Shown: positions 58,946 to 60,929 of the stretch, in pieces
Layout of the letters: each line of letters starts with the position of its first letter
How positions within the stretch are numbered: position 1 is the first letter of the stretch
DNA from: Nitrospirota bacterium
GTDB taxonomy: Bacteria > Nitrospirota > Thermodesulfovibrionia > Thermodesulfovibrionales > JdFR-88
Assembly (NCBI GenBank): GCA_021840255.1
Contig: JAKBYX010000001.1
Location: forward strand, 186,001-250,000
Direction of reading: 5' to 3'
Length of the DNA stretch: 64,000 nucleotides
Notes under the pieces: generated by a model
Databases searched by the model: none
Told to the model about the DNA's origin: nothing
The model's input: only the letters and a program-made list of their open reading frames with translations
Position numbers and translations under genes: made by a program

Positions 58946-60670
58946 TCATTTGTTCTTTTGATCCGCCTGCTTTCTTACCGATCTGTTTAACGCGGAAAGC
59001 AACGCCTTGAAGGAAGCTATATCGATATTGGGATCGATCCCCGCACCCCAGTAATTTTCGTGTTTCTCATCCTCTATCCTGATGCAGGCAACGGCCTTCG
59101 AGCCGGCGCCTTTTTCAAGGGCGTGTTCGTGATAAGCCGACAGCCTGAAGACCATGGAGCACCCTTCATTCAAGGCATCGCACAAAGCATGGATGGGGCC
59201 GTTGCCAGAGCCCGTAATATTTTTTATTTCACCATCGCGGGCGATCACGGCCCTTATCGTAACACCGGACGATCGTTCTTCGATGCCTCTTCCCTTGTTA
59301 ATTAACTCATAGTTTTTAAATTCATAGGGCTTTGTTATTCCCAGATATTCCCGCGCGAAAGCATTCCAGACCTCCCTTGGGGCTACCTCCCGTCCCGTCT
59401 TGTCCGCTATGTCCTGGACAATTCGTCCGAATTCCGGCCGCATCTCCCTGGGCAGTTGAAGGCCGTATTCCTTTTCAATTACATATGCGGCGCCGCCCTT
59501 CCCGGACTGGCTGTTTATACGGACGATAGACTCATAGGTTCTCCCAACATCCGAGGGATCAATGGGCAGATATGGGACTTCCCAATAAGGGTTTTTTGTT
59601 TTTTTGTTTTTCCCCTCCGCCATGGCCTTCATGCCTTTACTGATGGCATCCTGATGAGAGCCTGAAAAAGCCGTGTACACGAGTTCTCCGGCATATGGAT
59701 GCCTTATGTGCACCGGAATATTTGTGCAGTCCTCATAGACTTTGATCATCCTGTCCATATTGCTTAGATCGAGCACGGGGTCAATGCCTTGGGTGTACAT
59801 ATTTAACGCCAGGGTGATGACATCCGCATTGCCGGTGCGTTCTCCATTGCCAAAGAGAGTTCCCTCCACTCGCTCCGCGCCCGCCAGTAAGGCAAGCTCT
59901 GTTGCCGCCACGCCTGTACCCCTGTCGTTATGAGAATGTACGCTGACAATGATGGAATCCCTGTTTTTAACGTGTCCGCAGAACCATTCTATCTGGTCTG
60001 CATAGACATTGGGCGTTGCCATCTCCATCGTCAGAGGCAGGTTGATGATGATCTTTTGCTCGGGGGTGGGCTGCCAAACGTCCATGACGGCTTCGCATAT
60101 TTCAACCGCAAAGCCGGGTTCGGTGGCCATAAAGCTTTCAGGCGTATATTCGAAGCGTATGTTGCTGCCCGTCAATTTTTCAGCCTCCTGCCTGACAAGC
60201 CTTGCTCCGGATATGGCAAGCGCTTTTATCTCTTCCCTGCTCATCCTGAAGACCACCCGCCTCTGCAATGATGAGGTGGAGTTATAAAGATGCACGATCG
60301 CACTTCCCGCGCCTGCAATGGATTCAAACGTCTTTCTGATCAAATGTTCCCGCGCCTGCGTCAGCACCTGAATGGTCACATCGCCCGGAATGCGTTGGCC
60401 ATCGATCAGGTAGCGGATAAAATCATGGTCCGCCTGGGATGCCGAAGGGAAACCCGCTTCTATCTCCTTGAACCCCGTTTCAGCCAGAAGTTTGAACATA
60501 TTCCACTTCTTCTCTGTATTCATGGGTGTTACAAGGGCCTGGTTCCCGTCTCTCAGATCGACGCTGCACCATTTGGGAGCATGAATGATATTTTTGTCCG
60601 GCCAGGTCCGGCCCGTTAATTTCACTCCCTGAAAGGGCTTGTATTTATAAAACGGCATTTTCGTCTTCAT
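58946..60670 (-). CDS. leuA: 2-isopropylmalate synthase
   Basis: Condenses acetyl-CoA with 2-oxoisovalerate in the first step of leucine synthesis. The 574 residues are the longer LeuA2 type. Motifs are VDLRDGNQALVTPMN (catalytic Arg-Asp), GFKEIEAGFPSASQADHDFI, the metal-binding HSHNDRGTGVA, LFGNGERTGNADV, and a C-terminal LeuA regulatory domain (allosteric leucine binding) from about residue 440. Control is by the attenuator upstream and, by family knowledge, by leucine feedback. Confidence 0.95.
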   Translation of the reverse strand: MKTKMPFYKYKPFQGVKLTGRTWPDKNIIHAPKWCSVDLRDGNQALVTPMNTEKKWNMFKLLAETGFKEIEAGFPSASQADHDFIRYLIDGQRIPGDVTIQVLTQAREHLIRKTFESIAGAGSAIVHLYNSTSSLQRRVVFRMSREEIKALAISGARLVRQEAEKLTGSNIRFEYTPESFMATEPGFAVEICEAVMDVWQPTPEQKIIINLPLTMEMATPNVYADQIEWFCGHVKNRDSIIVSVHSHNDRGTGVAATELALLAGAERVEGTLFGNGERTGNADVITLALNMYTQGIDPVLDLSNMDRMIKVYEDCTNIPVHIRHPYAGELVYTAFSGSHQDAISKGMKAMAEGKNKKTKNPYWEVPYLPIDPSDVGRTYESIVRINSQSGKGGAAYVIEKEYGLQLPREMRPEFGRIVQDIADKTGREVAPREVWNAFAREYLGITKPYEFKNYELINKGRGIEERSSGVTIRAVIARDGEIKNITGSGNGPIHALCDALNEGCSMVFRLSAYHEHALEKGAGSKAVACIRIEDEKHENYWGAGIDPNIDIASFKALLSALNRSVRKQADQKNK

Positions 60671-60714
60671 GGATTTTTTAATCTCCTTGGATCATTTTTT
60701 TGGGAATAAAGGCT

Positions 60715-60893
60715 AAAAAAACAAAAATGGCCGGGGACCCCTTTCAGGGACCGCAGCCATTTGTTTTTCTCTTCTATTTCAGTTTTCTATTTTTTATTGG
60801 CGGAAATCAGAAAACAAAAATGAAAATACACGGCCGGGACCCCTGAAAAAGGTCCCTTCTAAGTCGAAGCAGCGTATATTTCCGGCACATCAT
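60715..60893 (-). promoter_or_regulatory. leuA transcription attenuator
   Basis: Four pairing segments are visible on the minus strand. 1:2 is GGGACC (60856-60851) with GGTCCC (60841-60836). 2:3 is CAGGGGTCCCGGCC (60846-60833) with GGCTGCGGTCCCTG (60757-60744), 14 positions with one mismatch and three wobble pairs. 3:4 is a terminator stem of 15 positions, ATGGCTGCGGTCCCT (60759-60745) with AGGGGTCCCCGGCCAT (60742-60727), followed by TTTTTGTTTTTTT. The 2:3 and 3:4 hairpins exclude each other. A stalled ribosome at the Leu codons of the leader peptide would cover segment 1 and favour 2:3, allowing leuA transcription. Confidence 0.82.
60807..60893 (-). CDS. leuL: leuA leader peptide, 28 aa
   Basis: An open frame ATG ATG TGC CGG ... 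TGA encodes MMCRKYTLLRLRRDLFQG followed by SRPCIFIFVF. Leu occurs at residues 8, 9, 11 and 15, just before and inside attenuator segment 1. No Shine-Dalgarno sequence precedes the ATG. The promoter's expected start site (about 60894) is next to it, so translation is probably leaderless. E. coli leuL has a comparable 28-residue length with clustered Leu codons. Confidence 0.65.
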   Translation of the reverse strand: MMCRKYTLLRLRRDLFQGSRPCIFIFVF

Positions 60894-60900
60894 GAAAATA

Positions 60901-60929
60901 AGTTTAAGGAAGAAGTTTTCGAAAGTCAA
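60901..60929 (-). promoter_or_regulatory. leuA promoter
   Basis: On the minus strand TTGACT (60929-60924) and TAAACT (60906-60901) are separated by exactly 17 nt. Transcription should begin about 60894, next to the leader peptide ATG. Confidence 0.65.

Follow-up and report, generated by a model that had tools for sequence, protein, structure and literature searches.

The window analysed here, the whole stretch of 64,000 nt, comes from a 2.2-Mb, 76% complete genome of the Nitrospirota, a lineage that agrees with the distance from enterobacteria assumed in an initial annotation of this DNA. Its minus strand carries leuA, which encodes a 2-isopropylmalate synthase of 574 amino acids of the TIGR00970/PRK03739 type (766 bits against a TIGR00970 cutoff of 697). 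Genes of this type are patchily distributed, being present in 20 of the 176 genomes of the order, and the same genome has a second leuA (L002), of the bact-type, which is without a leaderless CGACTTA leader. The control region of the window leuA occupies positions 60929-60714 (-) and comprises a promoter, a leader ORF, mutually exclusive helices and a T-tract terminator (Table 1). The anatomy of this region, the reading frame of the leader, the heptamer described below and the recurrence of all of these in relatives are read directly from the sequence.

Table 1. Features of the leuA control region, numbered by position in the window
Feature	Position	Strand	Basis and remarks
leuA, 2-isopropylmalate synthase	58946..60670	-	574 aa; TIGR00970
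Shine-Dalgarno (SD) AAGGAG of leuA	60683..60688	-	sequence
T tract of the terminator, TTTTTGTTTTTTT	60715..60725	-	ends at 60715
3:4 intrinsic terminator stem-loop (predicted)	60726..60761	-	-21.2 kcal/mol; the further 20 leaders of the comparison share this design
Segment 3, AATGGCTGCGGTCCCT	60746..60761	-	folding; pairs with segment 2 or segment 4
Leader peptide ORF, probably leaderless, MMCRKYTLLRLRRDLFQGSRPCIFIFVF	60807..60893	-	28 codons; start site predicted at or next to 60893
Segment 2, AGGGGTCCCGGCCGTG	60829..60844	-	partner of segment 1 or segment 3; 2:3 = -21.4 kcal/mol
1:2 hairpin, arms GGGACCTTT / AGGGGTCCC	60836..60856	-	folding
Codon 17, CAG	60843..60845	-	in the closest relatives, L005, L006 and L007, a TAG stop stands here
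Conserved heptamer CGACTTA	60860..60866	-	Arg-10 (CGA), Leu-11 (CTT) and A; a ribosome is proposed to stall here, its P site holding CGA and its A site CTT
-10 hexamer TAAACT	60901..60906	-	promoter scan; 17-nt spacer to -35; 7 nt to leader ATG
-35 hexamer TTGACT	60924..60929	-	promoter scan; TTGAC[AT] at the equivalent place in relatives

Promoter and leader of the window leuA

The promoter has the 17-nt spacer first ascribed to it (TTGACT-17-TAAACT), and its -10 box is followed by TATTTTC and then by ATGATG, the first A of which lies at 60893 and not, as had been given, at 60894. A scan of 500 bp returned this one site against a mean of 0.5 in shuffled sequence, a result close to chance; the promoter by itself is therefore weak evidence, and the weight of the case comes from comparison with relatives. 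The leader itself is as the initial annotation described it, with 28 codons of which four, at positions 8, 9, 11 and 15, specify Leu, and there is no SD match at its ATG (duplex energy +1.7 kcal/mol).

The leaders of the three closest relatives end at the TAG of codon 17, where CAG in the window lets the ORF continue to 28 codons. This substitution at 60845-60843 (-) represents either a true stop loss or a sequence error. The 28-codon form terminates at nucleotide 84, as leaders of other families do, and so need not be defective. An ORF of 86 amino acids (61067-60807, -) shares the frame of the leader and begins upstream, within anmK; it is most likely spurious and constitutes a trap for gene callers.

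Related leaders and their Arg-Leu core

A set of 21 leuA leaders, that of the window and 20 others, was compiled from the upstream regions of the order's leuA carriers and of other Nitrospirota. Since the arrangement recurs, with a constant layout, in relatives whose leader peptides are otherwise unalignable between families, it goes beyond chance. The leader ATG follows the -10 hexamer by 5-7 nt in 18 of the 21 (mode 6), or in 16 of 19 when L115 and L119, which were found by a pattern demanding this gap, are left out of the count, and most of these leaders have no SD; such spacing favours the earlier suggestion that the leader is probably leaderless. The three exceptions are L018, for which TTGATT-18-TATGCT-6-ATG can be read by eye, L010 (2 nt) and L030 (30 nt). 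In L010 an SD-preceded ATG in another frame may be used instead; that frame reads ATG CAC GAC TTA, so that the heptamer would also yield Leu in a second frame. In Alphaproteobacteria, considered below, the first leader shows a gap of 6-8 nt in most cases and is likewise leaderless by spacing. A transcript with an untranslated 5' region and SD-driven translation would make all of this promoter-to-ATG spacing coincidental. Such an arrangement gains something from the near-chance outcome of the promoter scan taken alone and from the start site being a prediction, but it is very unlikely in view of the spacing found in both groups and of the missing SD at the window ATG.

Among the 7-mers of the related leaders CGACTTA is the most frequent, occurring in 16 of 21; L008 and L009 are without it. 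Its CGACT core occurs in 19 of the 21 leaders, all of which read it as an in-frame Arg-Leu pair (CGA CTN), in most cases at codon 10 or 11 and over the whole set 9-17 codons from the leader start. With about 28 codons, several related leaders contain no more than 2-4 Leu, and the classical Leu run is absent. Judged from these sequences, the one constant Leu of the related leaders is that of the CGA-CTN pair, Leu-11 in the window, and not a Leu cluster. The initial annotation had expected clustered Leu in relatives and had counted its absence against an attenuator; one Leu after Arg proved constant and the cluster itself unconserved, a result that goes halfway towards that objection yet does not refute the switch. 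Two leaders from more distant Nitrospirota families, L107 and L109, have a variant CGACTGA leader (RLxCPAS*), followed by an apparent second leader.

A constant R-L dipeptide at such a distance from the start could also be the mark of an arrest peptide, with Leu-Arg-Leu acting in the exit tunnel, or of a nascent chain that senses free leucine and not a shortage of Leu-tRNA. The residues preceding R-L are, however, unrelated between families, and the Arg codon stays fixed as CGA even though the peptide would be identical with any of the five others, which together leave sensing by the peptide very improbable.

The distribution of the element was surveyed in the 176 genomes of the order with the pattern TTGAC-N17-20-TANNNT-N6-ATG-N20-50-CGACTWA, the reversed pattern serving as control, and gave 11 matches against 1. 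Eight of the 11 lie before leuA, six before TIGR00970-type and two before bact-type genes (L115 and L119), and three lie elsewhere, two of these inside long ORFs. A leaderless CGACTTA leader also precedes a third bact-type leuA (L129, TIGR00973-like), and all three of these bact-type loci belong to other families of the order. The idea that one leuA subfamily is the carrier of the element was rejected on these grounds; because both subfamilies carry it, it is the leucine gene, and not one protein family, with which the element is associated. Most bact-type leuA genes examined in the order are without such a leader, and many apparently lie behind a pssA-like gene.

In Alphaproteobacteria, 24 of the 33 leuA loci have CGACTWA upstream, with 34 copies against 1.6 expected, and CGA-CTT accounts for 33 of the 48 Arg-Leu pairs near the stops of short ORFs when these are counted without requiring any codon. 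A scan of 190 alphaproteobacterial genomes yielded 12 matches, and the reversed control gave none; by coordinates, 11 of the 12 lie no more than 500 nt upstream of leuA. Tandem CGACTTA leaders are common before alphaproteobacterial leuA (L215, L217, L219, L221, L227, L229-L232 and L234); the first often ends like RLxxPA(A/S) and the second like RLxGGxR, with GC-rich inverted sequence after each. Outside these groups, the leaders of leuA in Desulfobulbaceae, gammaproteobacteria and others are as a rule Leu-rich and mostly without the heptamer. Those of Desulfobulbaceae (L025-L048 and others) lie 170-300 nt upstream, often with a shared tail resembling (S)RLHRQTVAG or GLHxxTVA, and appear to be a separate flavour of leucine control.

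In 31 of 36 cases A follows CGA-CTT, and four apparently real alphaproteobacterial leaders (L216, L218, L238 and L241) have another base there; as far as these sequences indicate, the A is a preference and not a rule. Conservation that extends beyond two codons to this A is what would be expected if the heptamer were a signal at the RNA level, recognised by a protein, a tRNA or an RNA partner or acting as a polymerase pause, with the leader peptide secondary. That is nonetheless unlikely: the motif keeps the frame of the leader ATG wherever its core is present, the Leu codon differs at its third base (CTT, CTA or CTG), the next A is dispensable in the four leaders just named, the motif mostly precedes leucine genes, and no enriched complement of CGACTTA was found nearby in the leaders. 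Pairing of the heptamer with 16S helix 44 (AAGUCG) was considered and dropped, since G1491 does not match the conserved A at the end of the heptamer. Frameshifting by +1 at CGA-CTT-A, where the next +1 codon would be TTA, was likewise set aside, no consistent downstream frame being apparent by eye.

Competing helices and the proposed switch

The folding of the window leader bears out the architecture first proposed for it. The whole leader is far more stable than its shuffles (z = -4.46; 0 of 200 shuffles), and the three mutually exclusive pairings are present, 1:2 at -17.1, 2:3 at -21.4 and 3:4 at -21.2 kcal/mol, the last followed by the T tract. The 1:2 pairing includes a local hairpin at 60856-60836, and the stretch from the motif to segment 2 has -13.7 kcal/mol. 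A simple terminator scanner listed nothing for the window leader, probably because the terminator stem has internal mismatches. In all 21 leaders an intrinsic terminator and an upstream partner compete, which, with leuA as the downstream gene, supports the description of the element as a complete leuA attenuator. In L119 there is almost no 2:3 pairing, and the antiterminator is very weak. With the helix pairing chosen by energy, 3:4 pairing exceeds permuted pairing (reached by 1 of 2000 permutations) and 2:3 covariation is weak (reached by 18 of 2000); one clear triple covariation links segments 2, 3 and 4, being T-A-T in 11 leaders and C-G-C in 5. That the region holds nothing but a constitutive terminator and a chance ORF, leuA being driven from elsewhere, is extremely improbable, given that conservation of the promoter, the ORF, the frame of the motif and the competition between helices extends across families with unalignable leaders.

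The combination of Leu codons in the leader, leuA downstream and a terminator with an exclusive antiterminator is the basis on which a leucine attenuator is proposed, and the element is very probably a leucine-dependent, ribosome-mediated transcription attenuator of leuA, with a leader that is probably leaderless. For the start site, the stalling and the leucine response, we infer the following sequence of events. Transcription would begin at the leader ATG, leaving a bare 5' end onto which a ribosome would load. Under a shortage of Leu-tRNA, this ribosome would stall about 10 codons in, with CGA in the P site and CTT-11 in the A site, and would cover segment 1; segment 2 would then be free to pair with segment 3, the 3:4 terminator would not form and leuA would be read. 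When leucine is sufficient, the ribosome would pass over segment 2, 3:4 would form and transcription would end before leuA. Segment 2 starts 22 nt downstream of the motif in the window and, for most relatives, at 12-30 nt, as would suit a ribosome held with CTT in its A site, and the placement of the segments is such that a ribosome halted at the sensing codon would mask segment 1 and not segment 2.

The least certain part of this explanation is the role of CGA. Within the window no Arg codon is rarer, CGA making up 1.7% of them, and the 109 Arg-Leu pairs there include no CGA-CTN. The tRNA-Arg set of the genome comprises ACG, CCG, TCT and CCT; a tRNA-Arg with TCG was not found in this genome, which at 76% completeness could be missing tRNA-Arg(UCG). 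Because no TCG tRNA was found, CGA is taken to be read by inosine wobble of tRNA-Arg(ACG), A34 being modified to inosine by TadA. The most likely effect of a near-invariant rare CGA before the sensing codon would be to slow that step through P-site wobble between inosine and adenine. In yeast, decoding is slow where a CNN codon follows a CGA held in the P site, with CGA-CUG among the slow pairs, and this has been attributed to I-A wobble (PMC6301793). By analogy, CGA in the CGA-CTT pair may make one step slow enough for a single Leu codon to suffice as sensor, a tentative reading to which we give somewhat less than an even chance. The wider proposal, that CGA-CUN is a dedicated sensor pair in at least two phyla, replacing the Leu run at a leaderless 5' end, is put forward with the same reserve. 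If it is true, leucine is sensed by one codon in bacteria of two or more phyla, the decoding of the next Leu being made rate-limiting through P-site wobble.

The attenuator reading would place leaderless leucine attenuation in the Nitrospirota, with an equivalent layout in Alphaproteobacteria. The near-invariant CGA offers a clue to attenuators with a single regulatory codon and raises the question of P-site wobble as a bacterial signal amplifier, and the pattern is useful for annotating leuA together with its leader in many genomes.

Relation to known leucine leaders

Attenuators of leuA are well known. Enterobacterial leuL (RF00512, Leu_leader) resembles the present element in its Leu-codon leader, competing helices, intrinsic terminator and position before leuA, whereas the window leader is without an SD, would start at the transcript end and has one conserved Leu, in CGA-CTT-A, instead of a Leu run. 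RF00512 gave no match in the window even at E values up to 5, and none at the gathering cutoff in 15 related loci; no T-box was among the Rfam matches up to E = 5 in the window, and the microRNA matches returned by the Rfam searches were dismissed as chance. The element is covered by no Rfam family.

Closer in some respects are the leader peptides that likewise precede leuA in Streptomyces (LeuL1 and LeuL2; PMC8079986) and Corynebacterium (PMC4046766). Both LeuL1 and LeuL2 of Streptomyces lividans are leaderless (PMC8079986), and a passage of PMC4046766 cites a Corynebacterium ilvB leader without a binding site. The Streptomyces and Corynebacterium leaders have Leu runs (MRFGLLLLSCRGEGL) and LeuL1 is without a terminator, whereas the window leader combines a terminator with the CGA-CTT core. 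The actinobacterial LEU element is a pseudoknot whose base stem includes the leuA SD and which has no terminator (Seliverstov 2005, PMC1262725); it shares with the window a Leu leader ORF before leuA, but the terminator at 60761-60726 sets the window leader apart from that terminator-free definition. In Sinorhizobium meliloti, trpL is described in portions of PMC7298713 and PMC10117765 as a leaderless attenuator whose RNA 5' end is the leader AUG. It is alike in this 5'-end AUG and in the attenuation of a biosynthetic gene, and differs in responding to tryptophan; those portions do not mention a CGA heptamer. The CGA-CNN pairs of yeast (PMC6301793) are of the same codon pair class, but belong to a eukaryotic quality-control context and are not known as a regulatory sensor.

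A search of the literature for a Nitrospirota leuA leader or CGACTTA found no paper, and an earlier mention in Alphaproteobacteria is possible. Leaderlessness itself is not new, being known in Streptomyces (including leuA), Corynebacterium and Sinorhizobium. As far as the literature found and Rfam go, what appears to be new is a leaderless leuA attenuator in Nitrospirota, the layout it has in common with Alphaproteobacteria and its CGA-CTT-A core.
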